Assembly: GCA_016234485.1 (NCBI GenBank)
Contig: JACRBL010000013.1
Coordinates: 1 to 64,000, forward strand
Length of the DNA: 64,000 bases
Direction: 5' to 3'
Source: Chloroflexota bacterium
Lineage (GTDB): Bacteria; Chloroflexota; Anaerolineae; Anaerolineales; Villigracilaceae
The notes below the pieces were generated by a model. The model had not been told where the DNA came from and ran no database searches. It saw nothing but the letters and a program-made list of their open reading frames with translations. Position numbers and translations under genes: made by a program. This document shows positions 9,149-26,363 of the stretch, piece by piece (the first letter of the stretch is position 1; the number at the start of each line of letters is the position of its first letter).

Positions 9149-10249
9149 ATGGCAAGCGTTACCTATAAGAACGTCGTCAAAAAATTTGGCGACTCGACCG
9201 CCGTGGACAACATCAATTTCCACGTCGAAGACAAGGAATTCCTTGTGTTGGTTGGCCCCTCAGGCTGTGGCAAGACCACGGCGTTACGTCTGTTGGCTGG
9301 TTTGGAAGAAATCACCGGCGGCGAGATTCAGATCGGCGACAGGGTTGTGAACGACGTGGCGCCGAAGGATCGCGACATTGCCATGGTTTTCCAATCCTAC
9401 GCGCTCTATCCCCATCTTTCTGTTTATGACAACATGGCCTTTGGGTTGAAACTCAAGAAGACGCCCAAAGACGAGATCAAGCGCCGCGTGAGCGAGGCCG
9501 CAGAAGTGTTGGGCATCACCGACTTGCTTCAGCGCAAGCCGCGCCAACTTTCGGGCGGTCAGCGCCAGCGCGTGGCGGTGGGACGCGCCATCGTGCGCGA
9601 GCCGAAGGTCTTCCTGTTCGACGAGCCGCTCTCCAACCTGGACGCGAAACTGCGCGTGCAGATGCGCGCCGAGATCAGCAAACTACATCAGCGCCTGCAA
9701 ACCACCTTCATCTACGTGACGCACGATCAGGTGGAAGCCATGACCATGGCCACGCGTATCGCCGTCATTAACCGCGGCAAACTCCAGCAGATCGATTCGC
9801 CGCAGAATCTGTATGACCATCCGAACAACCTGTTTGTGGCAGGCTTCATCGGTTCGCCGGCCATGAACTTCTTCCCCGCCAAACTCCGCAAGGACGGCGC
9901 TAAACTGGTGGTGGACTCGGGCGATTTCGTCGTCGCCCTGCCCGCGGATGCGGCGAAGAAATACGAAAAGTACGAGGGACGCGAAGTTGTCTTTGGCATT
10001 CGCCCCGAAAATATTCATGATGTCCACTTCACGCCGCCCAACATTCACGGCGAAACGATCAGCGTGAAAGTGGACGTGACCGAGTTGATGGGGAATGAGA
10101 TCTTCCTGTACCTGGTGAACGGTAAGAACACTTTTGTGGCCCGCGTGGACCCGCGCTCAAAAATGCGCGTCGGCGAGCAGGCCCAGGTGATGTTCGATAT
10201 GGATCATGTCCATATATTCGACGCGCAGACCGAAGAAGCGCTTCATTAA
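9149..10249 (+). CDS. ABC sugar transporter ATPase (MalK/UgpC/MsmX type)
   Basis: A 366-residue ATP-binding subunit of CUT1-type carbohydrate importers. Walker A is GPSGCGKT (residues 36-43), the Q-loop is in AMVFQSYALYP, the signature LSGGQ is at 134-138, Walker B VFLFDEP at 154-160 and the switch histidine in YVTHDQ. The C-terminal part (about 240-366) is the regulatory OB/TOBE region with VFGIRPENI. Good ribosome binding site GGAGG 8 bases before the ATG. It is the only sugar ABC ATPase in the window although three permease pairs and two binding proteins follow, so it may serve all of them, as MsmX does in Bacillus. Confidence 0.95.
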   Translation: MASVTYKNVVKKFGDSTAVDNINFHVEDKEFLVLVGPSGCGKTTALRLLAGLEEITGGEIQIGDRVVNDVAPKDRDIAMVFQSYALYPHLSVYDNMAFGLKLKKTPKDEIKRRVSEAAEVLGITDLLQRKPRQLSGGQRQRVAVGRAIVREPKVFLFDEPLSNLDAKLRVQMRAEISKLHQRLQTTFIYVTHDQVEAMTMATRIAVINRGKLQQIDSPQNLYDHPNNLFVAGFIGSPAMNFFPAKLRKDGAKLVVDSGDFVVALPADAAKKYEKYEGREVVFGIRPENIHDVHFTPPNIHGETISVKVDVTELMGNEIFLYLVNGKNTFVARVDPRSKMRVGEQAQVMFDMDHVHIFDAQTEEALH

Positions 10250-10336: not shown

Positions 10337-11506
10337 ATGAAATCCAAGATCTCGATTTTGATTAGCCTCATGGTCATTTCGACCATGATCCTCTCCGCCT
10401 GCGGTGGCGGAGGCGGAGCCACGGAAAAGAAGGAAGTTACCTTCTGGCATGCCTACGGCACCGGTTCGGCGGAAGAAGTTGCGTTGGCCAAGGTTCTCGA
10501 AGCGGCCGCCACGGACCTGCCCCAGTATAAGATCAACGTGTTGCAGGTTCCGTTCAATGACATCTACAACAAGTATCGCACCGACGTCGCCGCTGGCGCT
10601 GGCCCGGATATGTTCATCGCCCCGAACGACTCCCTCGGCGACGATGCCCGCGCTGGATTGATTGCGGACATCACCGAAATTGCCAAGGGCAAACTCGGCG
10701 ATTACACCCCGCTCTCCGTCGAAGGCATGAGCGTGGAAGGCAAACTCTACGGTATTCCTGAGTCCCTCAAGGCCGTCGTCTTCTGGTACAACAAGGACAT
10801 GATCGCCACCCCGCCCGCCACCACTGATGAGCTCAAGGCTCTGATGGAAGGCGGCACGGAGATCTCCCTGTCCTACGGTTGCTACCACCACTTCGGCTTC
10901 TTCGGCGCTTTCGGCGGCCAGGTCTTTGATGACAGCTGGAAAGTCGTTGCCGACTCGAATTCCGGCGTTTCGGATGCCATGGCTTACTTGAACGATCTGT
11001 ATCAGATCTCCAAGGCCAATAGCTGGCCGAAGAACGACGGCGATGGTTTGGCTCCCTTCTCCGAAGGCAAAGCCGCTGCCATCACCAACGGCAACTGGGC
11101 CATGGGCGATTACAAGAAAGCCCTCGGCGACAAACTGGGCGTTGCCGCCCTGCCCGCCGGCCCCGGTGGACCCTCCACCCCCTTCCTCGGCGTGGACGGC
11201 TTCTACTTCAACCCGAACTCTGCTGACCTGAGCGCGGCCCTCGAAGTGGCCCTCTACCTGACCGGCAAATCTGCCCAGCAGATCATGATGGACGAGGCTG
11301 GTCACGTGCCCGCCAACACCAAAGTCACCGTGAGCGACCCGCTCATCAAGAGCCTGCTCGCGGCCTTCGAGACCGGTTACGTCCGCCCGCAGGTCCCGCA
11401 ATTGGGCCTGTACTGGTCGAACTTCTGCGGCACCGATGAGGTGTTCGAGAAGGGTACCGCCGCGGCTGACTGGGTCAAGACCGCCACCGAGAACGCCAAC
11501 AAGTAA
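10337..11506 (+). CDS. ABC transporter sugar-binding lipoprotein (MalE-like)
   Basis: A 389-residue extracellular solute-binding protein (SBP family 1). The signal peptide ends in the lipobox LSAC with lipidation at Cys22, followed by a glycine-rich spacer, so it is tethered outside the membrane. FWHAYGTGSAEE, VPFNDIYNKYRTDVAAGAGPDMFIAP and YGIPESLKAVVFWYNKDM are typical of maltodextrin-binding relatives. AAGGAG lies 7 bases before the ATG. It delivers sugar to the permeases encoded at 11737 and 12755. A terminator directly follows the gene, which would keep its expression above that of the permeases. Confidence 0.93.
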   Translation: MKSKISILISLMVISTMILSACGGGGGATEKKEVTFWHAYGTGSAEEVALAKVLEAAATDLPQYKINVLQVPFNDIYNKYRTDVAAGAGPDMFIAPNDSLGDDARAGLIADITEIAKGKLGDYTPLSVEGMSVEGKLYGIPESLKAVVFWYNKDMIATPPATTDELKALMEGGTEISLSYGCYHHFGFFGAFGGQVFDDSWKVVADSNSGVSDAMAYLNDLYQISKANSWPKNDGDGLAPFSEGKAAAITNGNWAMGDYKKALGDKLGVAALPAGPGGPSTPFLGVDGFYFNPNSADLSAALEVALYLTGKSAQQIMMDEAGHVPANTKVTVSDPLIKSLLAAFETGYVRPQVPQLGLYWSNFCGTDEVFEKGTAAADWVKTATENANK

Positions 11507-11523: not shown

Positions 11524-11556
11524 GCGGGCAGGGTGAATGGCCCTGCCCGCTTTCTT
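11524..11556 (+). terminator. Intra-operon hairpin terminator after binding protein
   Basis: Arms GCGGGCAGGG (11524-11533) and CCCTGCCCGC (11541-11550) pair perfectly around a 7-base loop, followed by TTTCTT. Placed between binding protein and permease genes, it should cut transcription partly, a common way to make excess binding protein. Confidence 0.8.
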
Positions 11557-11596
11557 GTTATACAAAAATCCTGGCTCATCCATAGAAAGTGTGGTT

Positions 11597-11688
11597 GTTG
11601 TTGCGAGGGCGGTGAACTTCCGCCCAACCCTGGCGGCCGCCCGCCAGGGCAAGTGTCGTCGGGAAGATCACCCTCCTCGCAGAGACAA
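11597..11688. repeat. Divergent copy of the 90-bp inverted repeat family (copy 1)
   Basis: Ends TTGCGAGGGCGG and GTCGGGAAGATCACCCTCCTCGC match the outer arms of the elements at 21795, 24726 and 57980, with the short arm left and the long arm right. The usual core around GAAGCAATC is replaced by a GC palindrome built on CCCTGGCGG and CCGCCAGGG. It lies just upstream of the permease gene. Confidence 0.6.
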
Positions 11689-11736
11689 GCGTCACTCTTT
11701 TTAAACATGAGCCAAAATCCTTGTGAAGGAGACTTT

Positions 11737-12753
11737 ATGGAGACCAGTAAAAAAAGCGCCAGTTTGCACAAGGCAAACCTTAAGCGCGCGGCGCTCCCCT
11801 ACTACTACCTGCTCCCCGCATTTATCCTTATGGGAGTCATCACGTTCTACCCGTTGATCTACCAGGTGATCATCTCCTTCACCGACTTCCAAACCAAGGA
11901 CCTGCTCAAGCAATTATCCTCGCCTGAGTTGAAATACGTCGGCATACAAAACTATGTCGAGATTGTCATGGGGGGATTGCCCGTTCAAAACTTTGAATTT
12001 TTCCGCATCCTCACCTACAACCTGTGGTGGGCGGTCACCAACGTGATGGTGCATGTGCCTGCGGGTATTTTGATCGCGGTGTTGCTCAATACCCAGGGCT
12101 TGTGGATGAAGCGCCTCTACCGCGCCATCTACATTCTGCCCATCGTCATCCCGCCCATCGTGGTCGCCACCGTCTGGCAAAACATCTTCGATGAGCAGTA
12201 TGGCGCGATGAACCAACTTCTCAGCGTTATTGCGGGCTGGTTCGGCTCGGCAGATCCCGTCCACATCCGCTGGTTGAATGAGTACACGCCTCCCATTCCG
12301 TGGTTGTTGCCAAACGGCCCGCTTACGCTCGCCTATTACGCCATGATGATCGCCAACTTCTGGCTGGGCTGGCCGTTTATGACCATGGTCGCCACGGGCG
12401 CGCTCCAGAGCATCCCCAAGGACTTGTACGAGGCCGCGTCCATTGACGGCGCTTCGGGTTCACAACAATTCTGGAATGTGACCGTCCCGCTCATCCGCCC
12501 GGCCATGATCCCGGCGGCGGTGTATGGTTTCACCCTATCCTTCAATCTGTTCAACTTCGTTTATTTTATGTCGAGAGGAGGTCCCGCGCGTTCGACGGAA
12601 ATCCTGGTCACTTTTGCCTACGATCTCGTGCGTAACCTCCGATTGTTTGGCGTGGCCGCGGCCTTCTCGGTCATCATCTTCTTCGTCGCGCTGATCATCT
12701 TCCTGATCACGAACCGCATCACACACGCGACCGAATCGTACTCGGAGGCATGA
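11737..12753 (+). CDS. ABC sugar permease, MalF type
   Basis: A 338-residue integral membrane permease. The open frame reaches back to 11533, but that part translates the terminator and a repeat; the ATG at 11737 has GAAGGAG 5 bases upstream. Six membrane segments can be read, with the ATPase-contact EAA motif EAASIDGASGSQQFWNVTVPLI in the second half. Its partner is the MalG-type gene one base after its stop codon. Together with the binding protein and the ATPase at 9149 it should form a CUT1 oligosaccharide importer. Confidence 0.93.
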   Translation: METSKKSASLHKANLKRAALPYYYLLPAFILMGVITFYPLIYQVIISFTDFQTKDLLKQLSSPELKYVGIQNYVEIVMGGLPVQNFEFFRILTYNLWWAVTNVMVHVPAGILIAVLLNTQGLWMKRLYRAIYILPIVIPPIVVATVWQNIFDEQYGAMNQLLSVIAGWFGSADPVHIRWLNEYTPPIPWLLPNGPLTLAYYAMMIANFWLGWPFMTMVATGALQSIPKDLYEAASIDGASGSQQFWNVTVPLIRPAMIPAAVYGFTLSFNLFNFVYFMSRGGPARSTEILVTFAYDLVRNLRLFGVAAAFSVIIFFVALIIFLITNRITHATESYSEA

Positions 12754-12754
12754 C

Positions 12755-13759
12755 ATGACCACCAATACCAAAAGTAAAAACCCCATCGTCCGCCTCCTGA
12801 CCATGAACACCTCTGGCGAGGTGGGCGGACGCGACCTGCCGCTCTGGAAACAGATCCTTCTACAATTACTGACTCTCTTCATTGCGGCCGAGGTGATGTT
12901 TCCGCTGATGTACGTGATCACCCTGTCGTTCAGTTCCAAAACCACGCGGCCATCCTCGCTGGAGATCTTCCCGAAAGAGCTTTCGTTTGTGGCCTACCAA
13001 CAGGTTTTGGATCGCCCCACCGCCAACCCTGTCACCTTCCTCGAATTGTTGCAAAATAGTTTTACGCTCTCCATCGGCGTGGGATTGATCTCCCTGCTCG
13101 TGGCGGTTACCGCGGCCTATGCCTTCTCGCGCTTCAAATTCAAGATGCGCCAGGTGTTGATGATTTTGGTCTTCGTTCCGCTTCTCATGCCGGCCATCGG
13201 TCTCGCCACGCCGCTCTACCTGCTGTTGAACAGTTTCCGCGTTGCAGATTGCGGTAACGGAGTCATTGCCCTATCGCCGTTCATGGCTTGCGATGTAGGC
13301 CTGGGAAAAGTACTTTTCAATCTACGCGACTCGCTTTGGGGCGTGGGCGTCGCCATGATCGCGGGCGCGCTGCCCTTCGCGGTCTGGAATCTTAAGGGCT
13401 ATCTCGACACCATTCCGAAAGAACTTGAAGAAGCGGCCATGATAGACGGAGCCGACGCGAACCAGATTTTCTGGCAGATCGTCATCCCGCTCGCCATCCC
13501 GCAACTGGCCGTCACCTTCTTCCTCGGCTTCATCGGTCACTGGCAGGAATTCGCCATGCCCTGGCTCTTCTTGAGTCAACCTGGCGATTACACCCTTGCC
13601 ATGACTCTCTACAACATGACAGGCCAATACGCCGGCTCCATCCCGTGGAATCGTTTCGCGGCCATGGCCATCATCGTGGCGGCGCCCGTGGCGGTCATCT
13701 ACATCGCCCTGCAAAAGCAGATCGTCGGCGGGCTGACAGCGGGCGGCGTCAAAGGCTAG
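12755..13759 (+). CDS. ABC sugar permease, MalG type
   Basis: A 334-residue permease, the second half of the channel. The ATG lies one base past the stop of the upstream permease, with GGAGG 6 bases before it, so translation is probably coupled. It has six membrane segments, the EAA motif EEAAMIDGADANQIFWQIVIPL and a C-terminus ending GGLTAGGVKG, as usual for MalG relatives. There is a small extra segment around the DCGNGVIALSPFMACD stretch, between membrane helices 3 and 4, which is longer than in many homologues. Confidence 0.93.
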   Translation: MTTNTKSKNPIVRLLTMNTSGEVGGRDLPLWKQILLQLLTLFIAAEVMFPLMYVITLSFSSKTTRPSSLEIFPKELSFVAYQQVLDRPTANPVTFLELLQNSFTLSIGVGLISLLVAVTAAYAFSRFKFKMRQVLMILVFVPLLMPAIGLATPLYLLLNSFRVADCGNGVIALSPFMACDVGLGKVLFNLRDSLWGVGVAMIAGALPFAVWNLKGYLDTIPKELEEAAMIDGADANQIFWQIVIPLAIPQLAVTFFLGFIGHWQEFAMPWLFLSQPGDYTLAMTLYNMTGQYAGSIPWNRFAAMAIIVAAPVAVIYIALQKQIVGGLTAGGVKG

Positions 13760-13822: not shown

Positions 13823-15406
13823 ATGCGCACCTCTTTCCTGACCCGAATCCTGCTCCTGACCCTCGTGCTTTCCCTGTCCGCGTGCGGAATTGCCCGCGAC
13901 GGCGCGCCCCGCCCAAACGTCGGGAAAGAGGCGTGGTGGCGCGAGGCTGTCTTCTATGAGATCTTCGTCCGCAGTTTCCGCGACACGAACGCGGATGGCG
14001 TCGGCGATTTCAATGGCATCACGCAAAATCTGGATTACATCCAGGCGTTGGGAGCGAACGCGCTCTGGCTCATGCCGATCCATCCGTCCCCCTCTTATCA
14101 CGGATATGACGTGGTGAATTATTACGCCGTGAATCACGAGTATGGGACGATGGAGGATTTCAAGCGCTTGCTCGAAGAAGCGCACAAGCGCGACATCCGC
14201 ATCGTGATTGACCTGGTCATTAATCACACGTCGAGTCAGCATCCATTTTTCAGGGACGCGCGCACCGACCCGATGTCGAAGTATCGCGACTGGTATGTTT
14301 GGTCGGAGACGAGCGGAGGCAATGGCTGGCATGCGGGCGAGAGCGGATTTTATTTCGGCTTCTTCTGCGATTGCATGCCCGACCTTAATTATAGAAACCC
14401 ACAAGTCACCGAGCAAATTTTAAACGTGACCGATTACTGGCTGAACGAAATCGGCGTGGACGGTTTTCGCGTGGACGCCGCCAAGCACCTAATTGAAGAG
14501 GGCGACGTGCGCGAAAATACGCCAGCCACGCACGAATGGTACAAGGGGTTTTACACGGTCTACAAAAAACAGAGGCGCGACGCGTACACGGTGGGCGAAG
14601 TGTTCGGCGCGGGTTCGTCGGTGGTGAAATCGTACACGGGCGATCAACTCGACCAGATTTTCAACTTTGAAATGTCGAGCGGATTTGTGAACAGCCCCAA
14701 CGGCGGCGCGAATTCGGGCATTGTCAGCGCGATCAAGTTTGCCTTGCAGGATACGCCTGATTTCAATTTCGCCACGTTTTTGACCAACCACGATCAGAAT
14801 CGAAGCATGTCGGTTTTCAACGGCAAGGTGGGAAAGGCTAAGGCCGCGGCCACTTTGCTACTCACCTCGCCAGGGACGCCGTTCATCTATTACGGCGAAG
14901 AGATTGGGATGCAGGGACGCAAACCCGACGAAGATATCCGCCTGCCGATGCAATGGAGCGCGGACGCCAACGCGGGCTTCTCGACAGTCACTCCGTGGCG
15001 CGCGCCTGCGCTTGACTATCCGCAAGTGAATGTGGCCGCGCAAGAGGCCGATCCCGACTCGTTGCTCAATCATTACCGCGCGCTGACCAAACTCCGCGCC
15101 GAGCAGGAAGCGCTCCGAAACGGCGGGATCGTTTTGCTCGATACGGGCAACACGGGCGTGTATGGCGCGATCCGCAAGTCGGGCAAAAACATTATTCTGG
15201 TACTCGTCAATCTTACCGACGCGCCCATTTCAAATTACAAGTTAACACTGAACGAAAAACTTCTCCCCAACCGATCTTTCACCCCAGCCTTGTTATTGGG
15301 AGCGGGAAATGTCAACGCCCTGTCCGTCGTAAAAGGAGGCTTTGTCGGCTACCAGCCGCTCGATGAATTGGCTCCTTATGGTTCTTATATTTTTCTGGTC
15401 AAGTAA
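13823..15406 (+). CDS. GH13 alpha-amylase-family glycosidase, lipoprotein
   Basis: A 527-residue alpha-amylase-superfamily enzyme exported as a lipoprotein: the signal peptide ends LSAC with lipidation at Cys21. The TIM barrel carries region I DLVINHTS, region II GFRVDAAKH with nucleophile Asp218, region III YTVGEVFG with acid/base Glu259 and region IV FLTNHDQNR with Asp324. A beta-sandwich domain closes the protein. It most resembles oligo-1,6-glucosidase/alpha-amylase types; exact linkage specificity cannot be told. Anchored outside the cell beside a sugar importer, it likely trims glucans for uptake. No good ribosome binding site precedes the ATG. Confidence 0.92.
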   Translation: MRTSFLTRILLLTLVLSLSACGIARDGAPRPNVGKEAWWREAVFYEIFVRSFRDTNADGVGDFNGITQNLDYIQALGANALWLMPIHPSPSYHGYDVVNYYAVNHEYGTMEDFKRLLEEAHKRDIRIVIDLVINHTSSQHPFFRDARTDPMSKYRDWYVWSETSGGNGWHAGESGFYFGFFCDCMPDLNYRNPQVTEQILNVTDYWLNEIGVDGFRVDAAKHLIEEGDVRENTPATHEWYKGFYTVYKKQRRDAYTVGEVFGAGSSVVKSYTGDQLDQIFNFEMSSGFVNSPNGGANSGIVSAIKFALQDTPDFNFATFLTNHDQNRSMSVFNGKVGKAKAAATLLLTSPGTPFIYYGEEIGMQGRKPDEDIRLPMQWSADANAGFSTVTPWRAPALDYPQVNVAAQEADPDSLLNHYRALTKLRAEQEALRNGGIVLLDTGNTGVYGAIRKSGKNIILVLVNLTDAPISNYKLTLNEKLLPNRSFTPALLLGAGNVNALSVVKGGFVGYQPLDELAPYGSYIFLVK

Positions 15407-15537: not shown

Positions 15538-15807
15538 TTAGGGTCTATTGCCGAAAGTCAGAATCACCATATAGACGACCGAGATCAACATCCCCAACAC
15601 CGAAATGCCGATGCCCGCGATGGCGGTATTACTCCGCTCGATTCTTAAACTCAAAAAGCCGAGTACCATCCCCAGCAGGCTGATCGCGCCGCCACACCAG
15701 GGAATCAACGCGCCGCACAAACTGATCAATCCAAGCGCGGCAGATGCGATGGCATACCACTTTGCCATCCGAAGTTCAGGGTCAAGACTATCAGGATCAA
15801 CATCCAT
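15538..15807 (-). CDS. Small two-helix membrane protein (DUF4190-like)
   Basis: An 89-residue protein with an acidic soluble start (MDVDPDSLDPELRMAKW) and two long hydrophobic segments separated by a short CGGAIS turn, a layout like DUF4190 proteins. The frame extends to 15930, but the ATG at 15807 has GGAGG 7 bases upstream and a TATAAT -10 (minus strand, 15837-15832) before it. Function unknown. It is divergent from the glycosyltransferase-permease fusion gene. Confidence 0.7.
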   Translation of the reverse strand: MDVDPDSLDPELRMAKWYAIASAALGLISLCGALIPWCGGAISLLGMVLGFLSLRIERSNTAIAGIGISVLGMLISVVYMVILTFGNRP

Positions 15808-15849
15808 GAAACGGCCTCCAGTTATCGCTGAATTATACACTTCCCTCCC

Positions 15850-18033
15850 ATGAACAAAACCATTCGAGCCCTCTTTCACATTCTCCCAATTGCGTTGGTC
15901 TTCGCTATCGCGTTTGGACTGCGAACCCACGCCGCCGACAAACTATCCATAGACTATGACGAGGATGACTACCTGCGCGCCGCCCAGGAATTTGCGCATC
16001 TCATTCGGACCTCGGATGGGCGCGGCTTTCTGGACGCGAACTACCGCCCCGAGCATCCCCAACTTGCGAAGATCATGTTCGGGTTGAGCATCGTGAATGT
16101 GCCAGAACAGCCACTGATCGAGGATGTACCCATCACAGCGGACCCCGCCAAATACCTTCCGCGGGAATTGCTCAAACCCGCGCGGACGATGTCCGCGTGG
16201 TGGGGCGCGTTGACAGCTGCCCTGCTGGCGCTGATCAACCCTCTCGGCGGATTGGTTCTCGCTGTTCACAGCTTCACCATCAAATACACGTCGCAGGTGA
16301 TGCTCGACGGATTCGCCGCGCTGATGAGCACGTCAACGGCGCTGGCGTATTACTTCTCCAAAAGGAAACAGGGCAAGGCAAAGAATGCCCTCCTGATTCT
16401 TTCGGCTATTTTTCTGGGTCTCAGCGCTTCATCGAAGTATCTGCATTCGGCGGTTGGGATTGCAATTCTGATTGACTGGTTTCTCGTTGCGCGAGAAGCA
16501 GGCGAAACAAAGAAATATCTGCGGAATGCATTTTTATGGGGGCTTCTTTCCATCCTAACTTTCTTTGTCTTCAATCCATTCTATTGGCCTGACCCGCTGG
16601 GACGCATCCAGGCCACCCTTGAGGCGGTCTCTGCGACGACCACCAATCCCAATGTGGTGAACTCGGCATATCCGGTCTGGCAACAATTGATTCACCTGTC
16701 CACCTCTGTGCCAGTCCGATGGAGCTCGCAGGGGTTTCTAGTTCGACTGGATGGATTAATTTTTCTTTTCGCGATCTTCGGTCTTGCCAACACGTGGAAA
16801 AAGAATCGCTTCATTACCATCTGGCTTTTCGTGGACGTGTTTCTCCTGCTGGTCTGGCAGACGCGCTGGGCGCAATACATCCTCGTGGCGACCGCGCCTC
16901 TCTCCCTCGCCGCGGCGGAGGGGATCAAGGTCGCGTGGGCGAATCTGGCCGAGTGGTGGCGCGCCCGCCCGGAGCGTCGGAAGGAGGCGGGGAAACTGTC
17001 CACGCGGGAAATGAAGCGCGCGCTCCCGTGGTTAATCCCCGGGCTGGTGGCGTTCGCATTGTTGACGATCATTCCCCTCGTCTTAGAATTTGCCATCTCA
17101 ATGACCGACTTCAGCTCGATATCCATTCGGGATGGATTCAACGGCGGTATCTGGCGCGCAATTTCACAGGGACTGACAGGTCAGGTGCCTGCCCAGGAAA
17201 TCGATATCGGGACACGCTCCACTCAGGTCAACTTCACCGGGCTGAATATCTATCCGCCCGTCTTCAGCTACGTTAGCCAGAGTCCACCGAACCTTTTATT
17301 TGGTACTGGGCCACAAAGTATCTTGTTCTTTAATGCCATGTGGACAGTACTCTCAGTAGTTCTCCAATTCGGGATTGGGCTGGCGATGGCGCTCTTACTC
17401 TGGCAGAAGGGGGTGAGGCTTGGCAAATTCTGGCAAGCGCTCTTCATTCTTCCATGGGCCATCCCCGAATTGATCGGCGCGCAGATGTGGTTCAATATTT
17501 TTAGGTTTGAATCTGGCTGGCTCTACCTGGCTGCCGAGAAATTCGGATCTGCCTCCTTCTTTGGAACCATTGTACATAGTCTACATACCAGTTCCAGTAT
17601 AAGACTAATTCCTCTCCTCCTCGCTGCCGCCTGGTACGGTTTCCCATTTATGATGCTGGCCGTTAGTGCGGGTTTAAAAATGGTTCCGCAGGATGTCCTT
17701 GATGCCGCGGCCATCGACGGGGCAAATCGCTGGCAGGCCTTCCGCACAGTAATCTGGCCGCTGATACTGCCTCTCATTGTCCCCGCCTTGATTGTGCGCG
17801 GGATATTCTCTTTCAATCAGTTCTATCTGTTCCAAACCTTTAGTCTTCAAACGGCCACATTGGCTACATTGTCATATAACCTCTTCAATCCTACTCCCGA
17901 GTACGGCGGTTTGCCAGGCGGTCAGTTCGCCATCTCGGCGGTGATCAATATTATCGCGGTGATCATCTTGATGGTATTCGTGATTCTCTTCAATCGCTGG
18001 AGCAAGGCAGGCGAAGGAGTGAGCTATGCGTAA
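15850..18033 (+). CDS. Fusion of GT-C (PMT-like) glycosyltransferase and MalF-type ABC permease
   Basis: A 727-residue protein in a single uninterrupted frame. Residues 1 to about 360 look like a GT-C glycosyltransferase of the PMT/ArnT kind: a signal-anchor helix, then an acidic loop IDYDEDDYLRAA (residues 34-45) at the usual place of the catalytic DE motif, a YRPEHPQLAK motif (66-74) and about eight further membrane segments. After a basic cytoplasmic linker (about 361-392, RARPERRKEAGKLSTREMKR) a complete MalF-type permease follows (about 393-727), with the EAA motif DAAAIDGANRWQAFRTVIWPL (618 on). The next gene, a MalG-type partner, overlaps by 8 bases. Known GT-C enzymes use polyprenyl-phosphate sugars outside the membrane; any link with transport is inference. 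No binding protein or ATPase of its own lies nearby. Confidence 0.85.
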   Translation: MNKTIRALFHILPIALVFAIAFGLRTHAADKLSIDYDEDDYLRAAQEFAHLIRTSDGRGFLDANYRPEHPQLAKIMFGLSIVNVPEQPLIEDVPITADPAKYLPRELLKPARTMSAWWGALTAALLALINPLGGLVLAVHSFTIKYTSQVMLDGFAALMSTSTALAYYFSKRKQGKAKNALLILSAIFLGLSASSKYLHSAVGIAILIDWFLVAREAGETKKYLRNAFLWGLLSILTFFVFNPFYWPDPLGRIQATLEAVSATTTNPNVVNSAYPVWQQLIHLSTSVPVRWSSQGFLVRLDGLIFLFAIFGLANTWKKNRFITIWLFVDVFLLLVWQTRWAQYILVATAPLSLAAAEGIKVAWANLAEWWRARPERRKEAGKLSTREMKRALPWLIPGLVAFALLTIIPLVLEFAISMTDFSSISIRDGFNGGIWRAISQGLTGQVPAQEIDIGTRSTQVNFTGLNIYPPVFSYVSQSPPNLLFGTGPQSILFFNAMWTVLSVVLQFGIGLAMALLLWQKGVRLGKFWQALFILPWAIPELIGAQMWFNIFRFESGWLYLAAEKFGSASFFGTIVHSLHTSSSIRLIPLLLAAAWYGFPFMMLAVSAGLKMVPQDVLDAAAIDGANRWQAFRTVIWPLILPLIVPALIVRGIFSFNQFYLFQTFSLQTATLATLSYNLFNPTPEYGGLPGGQFAISAVINIIAVIILMVFVILFNRWSKAGEGVSYA

Positions 18034-18880
18034 GATTTCCATCCCGCGTCAGATTGTCACGCAACTCGCGTTGGTCGCTATTGGCTTCTTCGTCATCCTC
18101 CCCATCTGGGGCATGGTACGCCTGGCCTTCGATGGTTCGCTGATGGGACGTCCCACCGAGTTTCGCCTGCTACCAAAAGTTTGGGCGTTCGAGCCTTTCC
18201 TGCGCGTGTTGGATCGTCCCTACCAAAGCGTGGACTTCTTGACCTTGCTGAGGAACAGCCTGGTGGTTTCCTTCGGCGCGGGTCTCATCGCCATCGCGCT
18301 CGGATTTGCGCTGGCCTACGCCTTTGCCCGCTTCCGCTTCCCCGCGCGCCAAACGGGATTGTTCGCCATCCTGCTTACCGCCGTTCTGCCTCCCGTCGCG
18401 TTTATGACGCCGCTCTATATCCTATTCAGCATTTTGCAGATTCGCACGTCGCTCCTGGCGCTGATCCTCGTCTACGCCGCGTTTGCCATGCCCTTCTGCA
18501 TCTGGAACATGCGCGCCGCGTTTCAGGCTGTGCCAAAAGAATTGGAAGAAGCCGCCTTCCTCGACGGCGCGAGCGATTTCAAAACCTTCCTCTACATTAC
18601 CCTGCCTCTGGCGCTTCCCTCCATCGCGGTGGCGGGACTCATCGCCTTCCTCATGGCCTACTCGGAATTTGCCATGGGATGGTTCTTCGTGGACAAGGCC
18701 GACAACGTCACGCTCGCCATGTCCATTTACGCCATGACGCAAAGCTGGGGCGGCGCGCAACCCTGGAGTTACCTCGGCTCACTCGCCATCATCATGTCCA
18801 TTCCCGTTGTGGTGATCTTCCTCATCTTCCAGCGCGCCCTGCTCGAACGGATGATGTTTGGCGCGGCGAGCGATTCTTGA
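18026..18880 (+). CDS. ABC sugar permease, MalG type (partner of fused permease)
   Basis: A 284-residue permease with six membrane segments and the EAA motif EEAAFLDGASDFKTFLYITLPLA. Its ATG lies inside the end of the fusion gene (ATGCGTAA), so translation is coupled. It is closest in design to the MalG-type protein at 12755 (shared WGMVRLAFDGS-like start and the EFAMxWxFxxxxDNxTLAM stretch), which suggests the two permease pairs are duplicates that may use the same binding protein and ATPase. It lacks the extra loop seen in that relative. Confidence 0.92.
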   Translation: MRKISIPRQIVTQLALVAIGFFVILPIWGMVRLAFDGSLMGRPTEFRLLPKVWAFEPFLRVLDRPYQSVDFLTLLRNSLVVSFGAGLIAIALGFALAYAFARFRFPARQTGLFAILLTAVLPPVAFMTPLYILFSILQIRTSLLALILVYAAFAMPFCIWNMRAAFQAVPKELEEAAFLDGASDFKTFLYITLPLALPSIAVAGLIAFLMAYSEFAMGWFFVDKADNVTLAMSIYAMTQSWGGAQPWSYLGSLAIIMSIPVVVIFLIFQRALLERMMFGAASDS

Positions 18881-19082: not shown

Positions 19083-19140
19083 TTGACAAAAAATCAATGG
19101 GGGCTATAATGCGGTTAGTTTGTTGCCCCAACATACTAAC
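19083..19140 (+). promoter_or_regulatory. Consensus promoter plus 27-bp operator palindrome (ROK gene 2)
   Basis: TTGACA (19083-19088), 16-base spacer, TATAAT (19105-19110): a perfect sigma-70-type promoter. Four bases later begins a palindrome with arms GTTAGTTTGTTG (19114-19125) and CAACATACTAAC (19129-19140), 11 of 12 paired, spacer CCC. It covers the expected start of transcription and ends one base before the ATG, an ideal repressor site and also a hairpin that would hide the start codon. Confidence 0.75.
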
Positions 19141-19141
19141 T

Positions 19142-20374
19142 ATGCCCAAAAACACCCTTGACCAGGCTTTCCTACGCGAGACCAACCTGTCCGCCGTGTT
19201 GCGGTTGATACAGGCGCAAGCCCCCATATCCCGCGCGCAACTGGCGGTGGCGACGGGACTGAACAAATCCACCGTTTCCAGCCTGGTGGACGAATTGATC
19301 GAACGCCATCTGGTCCACGAGATCGGGTTGAACTCCGCGGGGACTGGCCGCCCCGCCACCCTGTTGGAAATTGATCCGTTTGGCGGTCACATCATCGGCC
19401 TCGAACTCGGCGTGGACTTTGTCTCGGTGGGCATCGCAGATTTCAGCGGGGACCTGGTCTGGCAACGCAAAGAGGATGCCGATCCCGCGCAGGGTCAAGA
19501 TAGTATGTTGGCGCAGGCTCTGCATCTGGTCAAGGATGCGATCGCGATTGGAAAGAAAAAAGGCTACCGCTTTTTGGGTATGGGTCTCGCCACGCCAGGC
19601 ACAGTGGACTTGAAAGAGGGCGTGCTGATCTTCGCGCCCAACCTGCATTGGAAAGACGTCCCTTTCCGAAAGATATTCTCGGAAGCCACAAAACTCAAAA
19701 CCCATATTGACAACGACGCCAACGCGGCCGCCATCGGCGAGCATTTATTTGGCAGCGCGCGCTTTACGCGTGATTTCATTTTTGTGTTCGCGGGCGTGGG
19801 CATTGGCGGCGGACTGTTCTTGAATGGCAAGTTGTATCGCGGCAAGAACGGCTACGCGGGCGAGATCGGCCACTCCCCCATCATGGCTGACCATTCGCAG
19901 ACCCCCTGTCATTGCGGAAACCGCGGCTGTTGGGAAACCCATGCCAACCAATTCTCGATCATCCAACGCGTGCGGGCGCGCCTCGAAGTAAAGCGCGATA
20001 GCATTATTCCAAAACTGATGGCGGACGCGCATGCCCCGCTCTCGATCGCGCTGATCAAACAGGCCGCGGACGCCGGGGACCAGGAGGCCGCCTCATCGTT
20101 CGCTGAAGCGGGCCGCGCCATGGGACAGGGCTTCGCGGGGCTGGTCAACATCTTCAACCCCGACAAGATCATCCTCGGAGGGCCGTTGAGCATCGCCGGA
20201 GAATACCTCCTGCCCGCCATCCATGAAGTCATTCCGCATCACACCCTTCCAGAAATTGACCAGCAGGCCGAAGTGATTCTGTCCTCGTTTGGACCGAACG
20301 CCAGCCTGATTGGAGCAATTGCAATCGTCGTGGACGATGTGTTATCTCATCCAACCCAGGTTGAAAGGAGGTGA
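19142..20374 (+). CDS. ROK-family transcriptional repressor (second copy)
   Basis: A 410-residue ROK regulator: winged helix-turn-helix at about residues 15-65 (ISRAQLAVATGLNKSTVSSLVDELIERHLV), then the sugar-kinase-like fold with GLELGVDFVSVGIAD, GLATPGTVD, IDNDANAAAIGEH, GVGIGGGLFLNGKLYRG and zinc motif CHCGNRGCWE. The frame extends to 19097, but that would lie inside the promoter, so the ATG at 19142 is taken; no ribosome binding site is visible because an operator palindrome fills that place. The gene ends in AGGAGGTGA, an unused perfect ribosome binding sequence. It likely controls the transporter genes 20456-23646. Confidence 0.9.
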   Translation: MPKNTLDQAFLRETNLSAVLRLIQAQAPISRAQLAVATGLNKSTVSSLVDELIERHLVHEIGLNSAGTGRPATLLEIDPFGGHIIGLELGVDFVSVGIADFSGDLVWQRKEDADPAQGQDSMLAQALHLVKDAIAIGKKKGYRFLGMGLATPGTVDLKEGVLIFAPNLHWKDVPFRKIFSEATKLKTHIDNDANAAAIGEHLFGSARFTRDFIFVFAGVGIGGGLFLNGKLYRGKNGYAGEIGHSPIMADHSQTPCHCGNRGCWETHANQFSIIQRVRARLEVKRDSIIPKLMADAHAPLSIALIKQAADAGDQEAASSFAEAGRAMGQGFAGLVNIFNPDKIILGGPLSIAGEYLLPAIHEVIPHHTLPEIDQQAEVILSSFGPNASLIGAIAIVVDDVLSHPTQVERR

Positions 20375-20455
20375 GGCCCTGCATAGCATAACTCCCTGAT
20401 AAAAACCACTGTCCATTTTATTCAATTCAAATCAACCCTTTCAAAGGAGAGAAGA

Positions 20456-21706
20456 ATGAACAAGAAGATTTTCGCTCTGTTGAGCGTACTGATGATCGCC
20501 TCGCTCGCGCTTGCGGCATGCGGCGGCGGCGCCAAGAAAGTGGAAGTGTTTTCGTGGTGGACGGGCGGCGGCGAAGCGGCTGGCCTCGATGCCATGATCA
20601 AGATCTTCAACGCCAAGTACCCCAGCGTTGAATTCATCAACGCCGCGGTCGCGGGTGGCGCTGGCACCAATGCGCGTGCCGTGCTGGCTACCCGCCTGCA
20701 GGCTGGCGACCCGCCTGATAGCTGGCAGGGACACGCCGGCCAGGAATTGATCGGTACCTACGTGGCCGGCAAGCAGATCCAGCCGTTGAACGATCTCTAC
20801 GAAGCTGAAGGCTGGCTCGATGTCATGCCCGAGACGCTCATCCCGCTCATCTCGCAGGATGGCAACATCTACTCGGTGCCTGTGAACATCCACCGCGCCA
20901 ACGTGATGTGGTACAACCCGAAAGTCCTCGCGGATAACGGCGTTGCCGTCCCCACCACCATGGACGAGTGGCTCGCGGCCATGGACACCCTCAAAGCGGC
21001 TGGCGTCACCCCGCTCGCCCTCGGCGAACAGTGGACGAAGTTGCACCTGATGGAAACCGTCCTGCTTGGCTCCCTCGGCGCCGACAAATACAATGGTCTG
21101 TGGGATGGCTCCACCGACTGGGGCTCCGCTGAAGTGACTGCCGCGCTGGAGAACTACGCCAAGGTGTTGACCTACACCAACAGCGACTCCACCTCCCTCT
21201 CGTGGCAGGATGCCGCCCAACTCGTCATCAACGGCGACGCGGCTTTCAACGTCATGGGCGACTGGGCCGCTGGCTACTTCATCGAGCTTGGCAAAACCGC
21301 CATGACTGACTACGGCTGGGCTCCCGTCCCTGGCACGGTCGGCGTCTTCCAGTTCCTATCCGACTCCTTCGTGTTGGCCGTTGGCGCGCCGAACGAGGAA
21401 GCCGCCATGGACTGGCTGAAGGTGGCTGGCTCGAAGGAAGGTCAGGAAGCTTTCAATCCCGTGAAGGGCTCCATCTGCGCCCGCACCGACTGCGACAAGT
21501 CGCTGTTCGGTGAGTACCTCCAGTCCGCCATGGACGATTGGTCCAGCAACGTGGTCGTCGGCTCGCTGACCCACGGCGTGGTGGCGAACGACTCCTGGAA
21601 ATCCGAGATCGACACCGCTCTCGGCTTGTTCATCCAGGATGGCGATCTGGCCAAGTTCCAGGCCGCGCTGGTTGCCGCGTGCGCCGCGTCTGGTCCCTGC
21701 AAGTAA
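20456..21706 (+). CDS. ABC transporter sugar-binding lipoprotein (glucose/mannose type)
   Basis: A 416-residue solute-binding lipoprotein; signal peptide with lipobox LAAC and lipidation at Cys22. FSWWTGGGEAAGLDAMIKIFNAKYP, ATRLQAGDPPDSWQGHAGQEL, VPVNIHRANVMWYNP and GDWAAGYF are the landmark segments of the glucose/mannose-binding group known from Thermus and Pseudomonas (GtsA-like). Two Cys near the end (CARTDCDKS) and a C-terminal CAASGPCK may form disulfides. AAAGGAG precedes the ATG. A terminator and a repeat separate it from its permeases. Confidence 0.92.
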   Translation: MNKKIFALLSVLMIASLALAACGGGAKKVEVFSWWTGGGEAAGLDAMIKIFNAKYPSVEFINAAVAGGAGTNARAVLATRLQAGDPPDSWQGHAGQELIGTYVAGKQIQPLNDLYEAEGWLDVMPETLIPLISQDGNIYSVPVNIHRANVMWYNPKVLADNGVAVPTTMDEWLAAMDTLKAAGVTPLALGEQWTKLHLMETVLLGSLGADKYNGLWDGSTDWGSAEVTAALENYAKVLTYTNSDSTSLSWQDAAQLVINGDAAFNVMGDWAAGYFIELGKTAMTDYGWAPVPGTVGVFQFLSDSFVLAVGAPNEEAAMDWLKVAGSKEGQEAFNPVKGSICARTDCDKSLFGEYLQSAMDDWSSNVVVGSLTHGVVANDSWKSEIDTALGLFIQDGDLAKFQAALVAACAASGPCK

Positions 21707-21720
21707 AAGCCTAGTACAAT

Positions 21721-21765
21721 ATGGAGGCTCCGTCGAAGCTCGGCGGAGCCTCCATTCGTTTTTTG
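21721..21765 (+). terminator. Hairpin terminator after binding protein 2
   Basis: Arms ATGGAGGCTCCG (21721-21732) and CGGAGCCTCCAT (21744-21755) pair perfectly and are followed by TCGTTTTTTG. Like the terminator at 11524 it sits between binding-protein and permease genes. Confidence 0.85.
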
Positions 21766-21794
21766 AGACTCGCTACCGTATAATACGAGTAATT

Positions 21795-21882
21795 CCGTCA
21801 CTGCGAGGAGGGCGGTTTTCCCGACGAAGCAGTCCCCGTGTCGAAAGGAGATTGCTTCGGGAAGAACGCCCTCGCAATGACG
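21795..21882. repeat. 90-bp inverted repeat element (copy 2, reversed)
   Basis: An 88-base element with ends CCGTCACTGCGAGG and CCTCGCAATGACG-like. The two arms differ in length: the long arm carries extra triplets (GAGGAGGGCG, CCGACGAAGC), the short arm has GAGGGCG and CCGAAGC. Here the long arm is on the left, so this copy is reversed relative to those at 11597, 24726 and 57980. It lies 46 bases before a permease gene. Confidence 0.75.
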
Positions 21883-21928
21883 CAATGGCGGGTGTACGGT
21901 AGAGAATTACAAAAAAAAGAGGCCAGGC

Positions 21929-22816
21929 ATGTTTAAAGACAAGGATCGCTATCTTTCGATCGTTCTCATTTCTCCATCCATCATTGCCGTTCTGATCTTC
22001 ATTTATGGATTCATCGCCTGGTCGGTGCGCGTTTCTTTGAGCGAGTGGAAGGGACTGACTCCCGATTACACCTTCGCCAAACTGAACAACTACATCAACC
22101 TGTTCTCCGATCCGCGCTTTCAGGTGGACATTCGCAACACGTTGATCTTCACGGGGGTATTCGTGGTGGGAAGCATAGTCCTTGGGTTCTTCATGGCCGT
22201 CATGCTCGATCAGGGACTGAAAGGCGAGGGCTTCTTCCGCAGTCTCTTCCTCTTCCCGATGGCAATCTCCTACATTGTGACGGGCGTGGTCTGGCGCTGG
22301 CTGATGAACCCCGCCGAGGGAGATCGCATCAGCGGCTTGAACCTGTTGTTCTCCAACCTCAACCTGGACTTTCTTATCAACAAGTGGCACACCACCGAGA
22401 CGTGGGGCATCGCGGCCATCGCGCTGGCGGCCATCTGGCAGATGTCTGGCTACACCATGGCGCTTTACCTGGCAGGCTTGCGCTCCATTCCCATCGAGTT
22501 GCGCGAGGCCGCCCAAATTGATGGCGCGACCGAACTGCAAATCTACCGCCACATCATGCTCCCCCTCCTCGCCCCCGTCACGCTCTCGGCGCTTATCATC
22601 CTTGGGCACATGTCGCTCAAAGTCTTCGACTTGATCGTGGCAGTGGCAGGCAAACAACTCCCGCTGGACGTGCCCGCCATCTACATGTGGCAGACCACCT
22701 TCGACGGTCTCTTCTATGGACGCGGCGCCGCCATCGGCATCCTCCTGCTCATCAGCGTTGCGGTTTTGATCATCCCCTACATCCGCTACACTCTCAAGAC
22801 GGAGACGCAGGCATGA
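21929..22816 (+). CDS. ABC sugar permease (glucose/mannose type, GtsB-like)
   Basis: A 295-residue permease with six membrane segments. The motif EAAQIDGATELQIYRHIMLPLL is the ATPase-contact loop. The short N-terminus with no long periplasmic loop, and the phrase SLSEWKGLTPDYTFAKLNNYI, fit the glucose/mannose-type permeases rather than MalF. AGAGG lies about 9 bases before the ATG. Its stop overlaps the next gene in ATGA. Confidence 0.92.
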   Translation: MFKDKDRYLSIVLISPSIIAVLIFIYGFIAWSVRVSLSEWKGLTPDYTFAKLNNYINLFSDPRFQVDIRNTLIFTGVFVVGSIVLGFFMAVMLDQGLKGEGFFRSLFLFPMAISYIVTGVVWRWLMNPAEGDRISGLNLLFSNLNLDFLINKWHTTETWGIAAIALAAIWQMSGYTMALYLAGLRSIPIELREAAQIDGATELQIYRHIMLPLLAPVTLSALIILGHMSLKVFDLIVAVAGKQLPLDVPAIYMWQTTFDGLFYGRGAAIGILLLISVAVLIIPYIRYTLKTETQA

Positions 22817-23646
22817 AGACCAAATTCCGCATCGGCAAAAACTGGCTCTACATCCCGTTGATCGCGCTGGCGATCTTCTACCTGCTCCCCATGTACGTAA
22901 TGTTGGTAACAGGTTTCAAGAGTTTTGAAGAGATCGACCTGCAAACCATGTGGAACCTGCCACGCGGCCTCGCCCTCGACAATTACATCGAGGCCTACGG
23001 GTCGCTGGCTCCCTCACTCTGGAACAGTTTCCTCATGGTCATTCCCGCCGCGGCCATCTCCTCCATGCTCGGCTCGCTGAATGGCTTCATCCTCGCCAAG
23101 TGGAAATTCCGGGGCGCCGATTTCATTTTCCCCTTCATCCTCTTCGGGATGTTCATCCCATATCAAAGTATCCTCATCCCGCTGGTGGTTTTCGTCAACG
23201 CCACCTTGCGGCCGCTGGGATTGGGCGGCATCCCTGCCCTCGTCATCGCCCACGTCATCTACGGCATCCCGATCACCACGCTCACCTTCCGCAACTACTA
23301 CGCCTCGCTTCCGCAGGAATTGCTCGAAGCCGCCAAAATAGACGGCGCTGACATGCTGGGCATCTACCGTTGGATCCTGCTCCCCATCTCGATCCCCAGT
23401 TTCGTGGTGGTGCTGATCTGGCAATTCACCTCCGCGTGGAATGACTTCCTCTTCGCAGTGGTACTTACGAGCAACCGCTCCTGGCCGATCACGGTGGCGC
23501 TCAACAACATGGCAGGCAGTCAGATCATCTCATGGAACGTGCAGATGGCAGGCTCGCTCCTCGCCGCGCTCCCCACCCTGTTGGTTTACATCTTCCTCGG
23601 CCGTTACTTCCTGCGCGGGCTTCTGGCAGGCTCGCTCAAGGGATAG
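22813..23646 (+). CDS. ABC sugar permease (glucose/mannose type, GtsC-like)
   Basis: A 277-residue permease, starting at the ATG that overlaps the upstream stop (ATGA), so the two are translationally coupled. The six-helix core carries EAAKIDGADMLGIYRWILLPIS, and the C-terminus ends GRYFLRGLLAGSLKG as in GtsC relatives. With the products of 20456 and 21929, and an ATPase from elsewhere (perhaps 9149), it should import a monosaccharide or small sugar. Confidence 0.93.
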   Translation: MKTKFRIGKNWLYIPLIALAIFYLLPMYVMLVTGFKSFEEIDLQTMWNLPRGLALDNYIEAYGSLAPSLWNSFLMVIPAAAISSMLGSLNGFILAKWKFRGADFIFPFILFGMFIPYQSILIPLVVFVNATLRPLGLGGIPALVIAHVIYGIPITTLTFRNYYASLPQELLEAAKIDGADMLGIYRWILLPISIPSFVVVLIWQFTSAWNDFLFAVVLTSNRSWPITVALNNMAGSQIISWNVQMAGSLLAALPTLLVYIFLGRYFLRGLLAGSLKG

Positions 23647-23665
23647 ATCGAATCTCGCTTCCTCT

Positions 23666-23703: not shown

Positions 23704-23715
23704 TCAGGAGATCCT

Positions 23716-24872: not shown

Positions 24873-26363
24873 ATGCACACCCCCGACTGGGTACAAGACG
24901 CCATCTTTTACCAAATTTTCCCCGACCGTTTCGCCAAAAGCAAACGCAATCCCGCCTCCTCGATGCAATTTGAGCCGTGGGATTCCGCCCCCACCTATCA
25001 CGGATTCAAAGGCGGCGACCTCTACGGCGTGGCCGAGAAATTAGACTACCTGCATAACCTCGGCATCAACGCCATCTATTTGAATCCCATCTTTTCTTCG
25101 GCCAGCAATCACCGCTACCACACCTACGATTTCTACAACGTGGATCCGCTTCTCGGCGGCAACGACGCGCTTAAGGTTTTGCTCGCGGAAGCCCACCAGC
25201 GCGGCATGAAAGTCGTTCTCGACGGCGTGTTCAACCACGCTTCGCGCGGCATCTGGCAATTCCATCACGTGTTGGAATCGGGCGCCGGCTCGCCTTACAA
25301 AGACTGGTTCCATTTCAACGAAGATCATCTGCTCGGCAAAAAACATTGGGGCGCGTATCCCACCAAGGAAGAAGAAAAAGCCATTCAGCGCGACGGCACA
25401 TTAAAAGCCATCGGCTACCAGGGCTGGTGGAATTTGCCCGCCCTGCCCAAGTTCAACACCAAAACGCCCGCCGTGCGCGCCTTCCTCTTCGACATCGCCG
25501 AGCATTGGATCAAGTTCGGCATTGACGGTTGGCGGTTGGACGTGCCAGGCGAAATTGACGACGACTCGTTTTGGCAGGAATTCCGCCGCCGCGTGCGCGC
25601 CCTCAACGGCGACGCGTACATCGTGGGCGAGATCTGGCACGAGTCTCAGCGCTGGTTGCAAGGCGACCAGTTCGACGCGGTGATGAATTACCTCGTCACC
25701 GCCGCTTCGCTGAGTTTCTTCGGCGCGCGCACGTTGGATTTGAAAGTGGCGCACGAAGCGGGCGGCATCAAGGAACGCGTCCACGCGATGGACGCGCTGG
25801 CCTTCGCCAACGAAGTGGATCGCATCCAGAATCTTTACCGGCCCGAAGTCACCCGCTCGCAACTTAACCTGCTCGACAGCCACGACATGCCGCGCTTCCT
25901 CTCGTGCGTGGGCGGCGACAAGTCCGCGCTCAAACTGGCCTGGCTCTTCATCCTCGCCATCCCTGGCGCGCCCTGCATCTATTACGGCGACGAGATCGGC
26001 GTGGACGGCAGGCACGACCCCGAGTGCCGCAAATCCTTCCCGTGGGACGAGGCAAAATGGGACCGCGACCTGCTCGACTATTTGAAGACCGCCATCTCGC
26101 TTCGCAAGACTCACCCCTCGCTTCGCCGCGGGACGTTCAGCCGTCTCTGGTCTGCGGACGGGGTCTACGCCTTCGGGCGCGCGCACGCGGGCGAGTCGCT
26201 CGTGGTGGCGTTCAACGCGTCAGAATCGCCGCGCCCGCTCGAAGTCTCGTATGAAGCGAAGAGGAAACCAAAGGCGTTGTTCGGCCAGCCGTCGGATATC
26301 GAATCGAAAGGCGGCAAGGTCAAGTTCACCATCCCCGCGCGCAGTGGCGTTGTGCTGGGATAG
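24873..26363 (+). CDS. GH13 neopullulanase/cyclomaltodextrinase-like glycosidase, cytoplasmic
   Basis: A 496-residue alpha-amylase-family enzyme with no signal peptide, so it acts inside the cell on imported oligosaccharides. Region I DGVFNHASRG, region II GWRLDVPGEI (nucleophile Asp223), region III VGEIWHESQ (acid/base Glu253) and region IV LLDSHDMPR (Asp338). IFYQIFPDRFAKSKRNP and the YPTKEEE loop are typical of neopullulanase and maltogenic amylase (GH13_20/21), but the N-terminal CBM34 domain used for dimer formation is absent. AAGGA lies about 9 bases before the ATG. It complements the extracellular amylase at 13823. Confidence 0.92.
   Translation: MHTPDWVQDAIFYQIFPDRFAKSKRNPASSMQFEPWDSAPTYHGFKGGDLYGVAEKLDYLHNLGINAIYLNPIFSSASNHRYHTYDFYNVDPLLGGNDALKVLLAEAHQRGMKVVLDGVFNHASRGIWQFHHVLESGAGSPYKDWFHFNEDHLLGKKHWGAYPTKEEEKAIQRDGTLKAIGYQGWWNLPALPKFNTKTPAVRAFLFDIAEHWIKFGIDGWRLDVPGEIDDDSFWQEFRRRVRALNGDAYIVGEIWHESQRWLQGDQFDAVMNYLVTAASLSFFGARTLDLKVAHEAGGIKERVHAMDALAFANEVDRIQNLYRPEVTRSQLNLLDSHDMPRFLSCVGGDKSALKLAWLFILAIPGAPCIYYGDEIGVDGRHDPECRKSFPWDEAKWDRDLLDYLKTAISLRKTHPSLRRGTFSRLWSADGVYAFGRAHAGESLVVAFNASESPRPLEVSYEAKRKPKALFGQPSDIESKGGKVKFTIPARSGVVLG

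Follow-up and report, generated by a model that had tools for sequence, protein, structure and literature searches.

Why should a Chloroflexota bacterium make a membrane glycosyltransferase and a sugar-importer subunit as one polypeptide? The question is raised by a stretch of 64,000 nucleotides (the window; positions 1 to 64,000 of contig JACRBL010000013.1, assembly GCA_016234485.1, forward strand), in which a single open frame at 15850-18033, complete and with no internal stop, encodes a protein of 727 aa. Its first half resembles glycosyltransferases of the GT-C superfamily, its second half is a permease of the MalF type from the ATP-binding cassette (ABC) importers, and the gene of a partner permease, MalG2, follows directly. 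Judged by its relatives, this fusion is old and conserved in many Chloroflexota genera. We favour, with somewhat better than even confidence, the explanation that it would be the importer core of an alpha-glucan uptake system, driven by a shared MalK ATPase and carrying a tethered extracytoplasmic glycosyltransferase, with both functions putative. The elements concerned are:

15850..18033, plus strand: GT-C / MalF-type permease fusion, 727 aa (open frame; 64 whole fused relatives; AlphaFold2 model)
15850..16944, plus strand: PMT-like GT-C half, residues 1-365 (fold matches)
15952..15972, plus strand: acidic motif D35-x-D37-E38-D39-D40-Y41 in the first outer loop, presumed catalytic (identical in 65/65)
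16051..16059, plus strand: E68-H69-P70 (HPQL-like) motif in the first outer loop (identical in 65/65)
16867..16878, plus strand: W340-x-Q342-Y343 at the outer end of the last GT-C helix (W340, Q342, Y343 identical in 65/65)
16945..17025, plus strand: basic cytosolic linker, residues 366-392 (poorly conserved)
17026..18030, plus strand: MalF-type permease half, residues 393-727 (Pfam BPD_transp_1; MalF 2r6g_F profile)
17680..17769, plus strand: region of the EAA (ATPase-docking) loop, D623-G624 invariant (alignment, 65/65)
17812..17826, plus strand: F655-N-Q-F-Y659, aligned with the MalF sugar-site segment (identical in 65/65)
18026..18880, plus strand: MalG2 partner permease, overlapping the fusion by 8 nt (Pfam BPD_transp_1)

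The initial annotation had given the coordinates, the domain assignment, the motifs, the linker and the EAA loop, all of which are borne out by the frame, Pfam, the models and the alignment, and it had noted the 8-base overlap with the MalG gene, which also holds (MalG2 starts at 18026 and the fusion ends at 18033). The AlphaFold2 model of the whole fusion has a pLDDT (predicted local distance difference test) of 91.5 and a pTM (predicted template modelling score) of 0.88, with a helical linker.

Among the genomes of 61 relatives (the window's own included), eight others carry near-full-length, stop-free matches at 43-63% identity, and they belong to three families. The same two-domain architecture was then sought across genomes, as the initial annotation had proposed, by a pattern scan of 84,980 species with one genome each, from which the best 80 of 84 matches were kept, giving 76 loci. 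Both halves lie in one frame at 69/76 loci, 64 of them whole and five cut by a contig end (L031, L036, L059, L073, L088); the scripted count was 70/76, from which L075 was removed as frame-split, with only about 100 GT-C residues in the permease frame. The other six are L093 and L095, with the halves in different frames, L097, L102 and L103, cut by a contig end before the permease, and L099, with the GT-C alone. By record title, none of the 76 loci lies outside Chloroflexota, the patterns having been derived from one protein, so that distant fusions could be missed. The whole fusions are directly followed by MalG2 in 63/64 cases (L087 is the sole exception), and the overlap is exactly 8 nt in 47/64. 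The fusion family was present in 43 of 301 genomes sampled across the order. Five of these (G022, G033, G553, G620, G647) have the GT-C only, the fusion is split in G567 and G642, which seem to be the loci L075 and L095, and a contig end truncates it in G043 and G594; save for the open contig-end case of G043, no genome among the 43 has the permease half without the GT-C. A phylum-wide profile of the GT-C half found relatives in 36/400 genomes, and some of these (L128, L130, L131) are fusions with MalG2 from outside the class to which the window belongs. The 61-genome, 84,980-species and 301-genome samples overlap and their counts are not independent. In the GT-C tree, which holds some long or gappy rows (L128, L130, L132, L141, L147), the fusion label changes 7 times, with 4 of the changes forced by starred branches; a single fusion event is likely. 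At L095:10020-10260 the fusion is split into two frames. A TTG in the second frame overlaps the stop codon of the first (TTGA), so that a natural two-gene form is conceivable, possibly a return to two coupled genes.

When the window protein and its 64 relatives were aligned (A1, 65 sequences), we found identity in 65/65 at D35, D37, E38, D39, D40, Y41, E68, H69, P70, R112, Y146, M151, K196, W340, Q342 and Y343 of the GT-C half, and at W595, G597, D623, G624, R650 and F655-Y659 of the permease half. The mean frequency of the top residue is 0.62 and 0.63 in the two halves versus 0.33 in the linker, where 1/27 columns is conserved at >=95%. Moreover, the pairwise ratio of nonsynonymous to synonymous substitution rates (dN/dS, NG86) was 0.02-0.21 in both halves for 10/11 pairs, with several dS values saturated and no value for one pair; fixed codon counts were used to divide the protein, which makes the borders approximate, and the linker values are noisy. 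A dead GT-C or a dead permease was rejected on the invariant motifs and the low dN/dS.

The GT-C half was predicted with a pLDDT of 95.9 and a pTM of 0.93. A sequence search against PDB chains gave no match up to E 10, so a fold search was needed; all 16 of its PDB matches at E<=1e-3 are GT-C enzymes, among them Pmt4, Pmt1-Pmt2, STT3 of oligosaccharyltransferases, ArnT and ALG9. The best match, C. thermophilum Pmt4 of the PMT family (GT39, 9i5k), has a TM-score of 0.65 by query length, and ArnT (GT83, 5f15), with which the GT-C fold is also common, has 0.59. In the Pfam scan, PMT_2 matched the isolated first half with E 7e-4 and 20.3 bits, under the Pfam cut-off of 26.1, while among relatives PMT_2 was found at E<=0.01 in 13/34 (best 2.3e-8) and PMT in 4/34 (best 4.4e-5). 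Ten transmembrane helices were read off the model, with both ends cytosolic, and this orientation agrees with the enrichment of Lys and Arg in the inner loops (20 in 71 inner-loop residues versus 14 in 175 outer-loop residues). The helix order of the model places K196 and the residues of the acidic, EHP, KY-QxM and WxQY motifs within outer loops or next to them. R112 falls within the second helix, towards the outer side, and other conserved positions are within helices or, as with P131, at an inner turn. PMTs likewise have an acidic motif in the first outer loop, and membership of the GT-C superfamily is supported by the predicted fold together with the acidic residues in the first extracytoplasmic loop. 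The fusion's GT-C half differs from PMT and ArnT in its 10 predicted helices, in lacking a MIR domain or any other outer domain and in being fused to an ABC permease; identity over the matches to them is 14-18%. No MIR domain appeared in the Pfam scan of the window protein; eukaryotic PMTs carry MIR domains, and bacterial PMTs lack them too.

The permease half matches BPD_transp_1 at residues 508-717 (E 1.6e-15, Pfam) and the MalF profile 2r6g_F with E 6.5e-35, and scores 71.5 bits against the NCBIfam MalF equivalog, whose cut-off is 392; by sequence it is MalF-like and not MalF itself. It shares with MalF of MalFGK2 (2r6g) the sequence type, the fold, the EAA loop and the MalG partner, but a whole glycosyltransferase precedes its MalF-like helices, the fusion/MalG2 gene pair comes without a binding protein or ATPase, and a Tyr stands at the position of MalF N440, where it differs from both MalF and the window's ordinary permease MalF1. 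The MalF residues aligned to F655-Y659, including N440, are presumably part of the sugar site. Because this substrate-site-like segment is invariant and distinct from those of MalF1 and MalF, the permease probably still moves a defined substrate. SugA of the mycobacterial LpqY-SugABC (7cad_A) is a further close fold match (TM-score 0.85 by target length). LpqY-SugABC is a trehalose recycling importer that recovers the product of outside reactions, and its transferases are separate secreted mycolyltransferases, neither GT-C nor fused; as a precedent for recycling by the fusion importer it serves as an analogy only. In the literature searched, with most subscription journals outside the coverage, no description of a GT-C/MalF fusion was found. 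Both halves come from known superfamilies, and the novelty would lie in a MalF-like subunit of an importer that includes a GT-C enzyme in its own chain.

Upstream and downstream of the fusion, the window encodes the parts of an alpha-glucan uptake system:

9149..10249, plus strand: MalK-type ATPase, probable shared motor (Pfam ABC_tran, OB_MalK, TOBE_2)
10337..11506, plus strand: sugar-binding lipoprotein SBP1 (Pfam SBP_bac_8, SBP_bac_1)
11533..12753, plus strand: MalF1, ordinary maltodextrin-type permease (Pfam)
12755..13759, plus strand: MalG1 (Pfam)
13823..15406, plus strand: alpha-amylase-family protein (glycoside hydrolase family 13, GH13) with a lipoprotein-like start (Pfam Alpha-amylase E 1.1e-106; signal read from sequence)
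24873..26363, plus strand: second GH13 enzyme (Pfam; directly after MalG2 in several relatives)

Among the 64 whole fusions, 32 have at least one of SBP1, MalF1, MalG1 and the amylase in the 7.5 kb upstream (two of these calls, L065 and L098, rest on one neighbour near a contig end), 27 have prfA upstream or prmC downstream, five have neither setting and none has both. The genes prfA, prmC, uvrC, tsaC and tsaD were identified by Pfam at L035. By the fewest changes on a quick GT-C tree with 57 labelled fusions, the setting switched 5 times, with the fusion-MalG2 pair staying together; to regard the fusion as a simple part of the maltodextrin operon is incomplete, since 27/64 adjoin prfA/prmC. 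In the 301-genome sample, a close MalF1 (a match at E<=1e-60) occurs in 35 of 43 fusion-family genomes versus 19 of 258 others (Fisher odds ratio 55, uncorrected for shared descent), and in 33/38 once the five GT-C-only genomes are left out. In the prfA-type genomes G020, G013, G025 and G298, MalF1 and the fusion lie on different contigs, and at the loci read the prfA-type copies had no binding-protein gene next to them.

The initial annotation had stated that the permease pair has no ATPase of its own. This holds for the gene pair; elsewhere in the genome, however, there is one close MalK, probably serving both pairs. Exactly one match to MalK at E<=1e-80 was present in each of 10 chosen genomes (76-86% identity outside the window's genome), the sole one in the window's genome being that at 9149-10249, and in 7/8 tested genomes with MalF1 it lies within 5 kb of MalF1 (G025 is the exception). 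Since there is one close MalK per tested genome, near MalF1, a single MalK probably drives both permease pairs.

Some further features of the neighbourhood were observed. The amylase and the fusion are 443 nt apart, so that in the window the fusion may be transcribed from a promoter of its own; a small divergent frame lies there at about 15538-15810 on the minus strand, with relatives beside other fusions (L030, L031). Between MalG2 and the second GH13 gene, at 19097-24696, are a ROK regulator, a second binding protein, a permease pair and a GFO/IDH/MocA oxidoreductase; at L029 the GH13 gene directly follows MalG2, which suggests that the cassette was inserted in the lineage of the window. The window also holds two very long frames, one at 26550-29816 (1088 aa, no Pfam match at E<=0.01) and one at 235-5271 (1678 aa).

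GT-Cs of the same family also occur fused to a Reg_prop beta-propeller that is apparently extracytoplasmic, recognized by Pfam in L020, L022 and L136 and by similarity to L136 in L143, L144, L146 and L149. These proteins share with the window the GT-C family and the nearness of sugar-binding protein (SBP), MalF and MalG genes, but their fusion partner is the propeller and the permease is encoded separately. Propeller GT-Cs beside SBP-MalF-MalG genes are:

L136:8902-11010
L138:10295-12466
L143:9253-11370
L146:7821-9956

In family f36 the propeller GT-C comes after SBP-MalF-MalG at 5/7 loci read (L136, L143, L144, L146, L149); of the remainder, L142 has SBP and MalF with no MalG frame picked, and L145 has none of the three. 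Amylase-family genes adjoin the GT-C at L129, L138, L139 and L140, and L138 also has SBP-MalF-MalG. In the GT-C tree nine rows carry the propeller label, of which L139 (347 aa) is too short for a propeller and the labels of L141 and L147 are unchecked. As far as gene neighbourhoods tell, the tie to maltodextrin uptake recurs in different architectures and is not universal in the GT-C family.

In addition, a stand-alone GT-C copy, with about 42% identity to the window's GT-C half, lies directly upstream of five fusions:

L050:7969-9072
L053:8989-10125
L063:218-1312
L066:8887-10059
L096:6704-7876

These tandem copies form one clade nested among the fusions in the GT-C tree; 4/5 of their loci have prfA upstream, and L063 has prmC downstream. 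At L150:8544-9692 and L133:8831-10162 the prfA site holds a GT-C but neither a complete permease half nor MalG2, L133 ending shortly inside the permease. The prfA sites of G022 and G647 likewise have a GT-C gene without permease and MalG2, and the G647 gene may be the tandem copy; this persistence without a permease hints that the transferase is able to work alone.

Taking these results together, we favour an importer core with a tethered transferase. GT-C-MalF2 (MalF2 being the fusion's permease half) and MalG2 would form a second importer core of alpha-glucan (maltodextrin) uptake, driven by the shared MalK. The GT-C half would use a polyprenyl-phosphate sugar donor, take the sugar from this carrier and place it on an acceptor at the importer mouth, while the permease half would import sugar. 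A real functional tie is suggested because both halves are under strong selection and the sister GT-C repeats the link to sugar import. The coupling of import to a membrane-side transfer, which the initial annotation had raised, fits the conservation of both halves and the maltodextrin setting, while the coupling itself stays inferred.

The identity of the acceptor is the weakest step of the mechanism. According to one report, Pmt of Corynebacterium glutamicum is needed for the glycosylation of secreted proteins and of a putative lipoprotein, with the lipoprotein sites at Ser/Thr near prolines (PMC3460810). We read the linkers of 25 SBP1 and 19 amylase proteins with a site of simple lipobox pattern (at least one amylase row, L060, was clearly mis-read), and by eye, without a control set of lipoproteins, many are rich in Ala, Thr and Pro. 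On the analogy of lipoprotein glycosylation by PMT enzymes in actinobacteria, and on these linkers, lipoproteins of the uptake system (the binding protein and the amylase) are our first choice of acceptor, a tentative one. The second choice, to which we give a little less weight, is the oligosaccharide itself, which would be glycosylated and then imported.

Several observations weigh against the proposed importer core with its transferase. The window protein falls under the PMT_2 cut-off of Pfam, and the linkers of the window's own SBP1 and amylase are short and poor in Ser/Thr, which weakens the lipoprotein-acceptor step. Fusions away from the sugar operon make up 27/64, and 8/43 fusion-family genomes have no MalF1 match, five of these eight with the fusion. 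More distant ATPases exist, with 88 first-look candidates in the window's genome. The GT-C occurs without a permease in 5/43 genomes, no SBP-MalF-MalG genes are beside the stand-alone copies at L099, L124-L127, L132, L151 and L153, and none are beside the GT-C at L141, L145 and L147. Because of the GT-C-only genomes and the stand-alone loci, the coupling and the link to a sugar operon are not universal.

Other explanations were weighed against the same evidence. One, which we judge unlikely though deserving attention, is that maltodextrins or other oligosaccharides receive a sugar from the GT-C in the extracellular space and that MalF2-MalG2-MalK imports the product, which would thus be kept from competitors. 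It would suit a permease whose substrate-site-like positions (F655-Y659, W595, G597) are invariant and unlike MalF1 at the MalF N440 position, and it agrees with the maltodextrin genes upstream in 32/64 and with the propeller-fused sisters after SBP-MalF-MalG in family f36; however, it accounts poorly for the five genomes with GT-C alone and for prfA-type copies with no binding-protein gene seen beside them. We know of no precedent for such tagging and import by an importer-linked transferase.

We regard as doubtful the proposal that the fusion serves placement only, the permease half acting mainly as a scaffold that holds the GT-C close to the uptake machinery. The free drift of the linker and the fusion of the GT-C to another module, the beta-propeller, are in its favour, but a mere scaffold would hardly keep D623-G624 of the EAA loop and the substrate-site-like segment invariant in 65/65, hold its dN/dS at the low level of the GT-C half and retain MalG2 in 63/64.

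Slightly more doubtful again is carrier recycling, in which the permease pair, having lost sugar import, would return spent polyprenyl phosphate or bring charged carrier for the GT-C. Since the GT-C occurs without the permease in 5/43 genomes and the reverse is unseen (the contig-end case of G043 being open), the permease may serve the GT-C; G022 and G647, both at the prfA site, look like permease losses, and the prfA-type copies stand alone. However, the remaining three genomes with GT-C alone carry distant versions (32-38% identity) that perhaps were never part of a fusion, and the permease half has a normal MalF/SugA-type fold with an invariant sugar-site-like segment. No lipid transport by MalFG-type cores is known to us.

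Finally, the idea of an artefact, through an assembly join or through two ordinary genes having recently lost the stop between them, a doubt that the initial annotation itself had voiced, is rejected and keeps practically no credence, for although 3/76 loci (L075, L093, L095) have the halves in different frames, L095 perhaps as a natural two-gene form, the doubt is contradicted by the 64 whole fused relatives, homologues are fused at 69/76 loci and not always two separate genes, the one-frame architecture recurs in eight other separately assembled genomes of three families, which rules out an assembly join, and the tree demands no recent event for the single-frame state.

Extracytoplasmic glycosylation and sugar import have been studied as separate processes, and to our knowledge the envelope glycobiology of Chloroflexota is largely unexplored. 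With the fusion, a tie between the two can be probed on one defined protein, at specified residues of either half. It might, as a tentative further step, represent a new class of ABC importer in which a glycosyltransferase dependent on a lipid carrier is built into the permease and glycosylates sugars or surface proteins where the channel opens to the outside, in step with ATP-driven import. If this is true, an enzyme activity would join the known add-ons of ABC importers, and a machine that glycosylates and imports would be widespread in Anaerolineae and their Chloroflexota kin.

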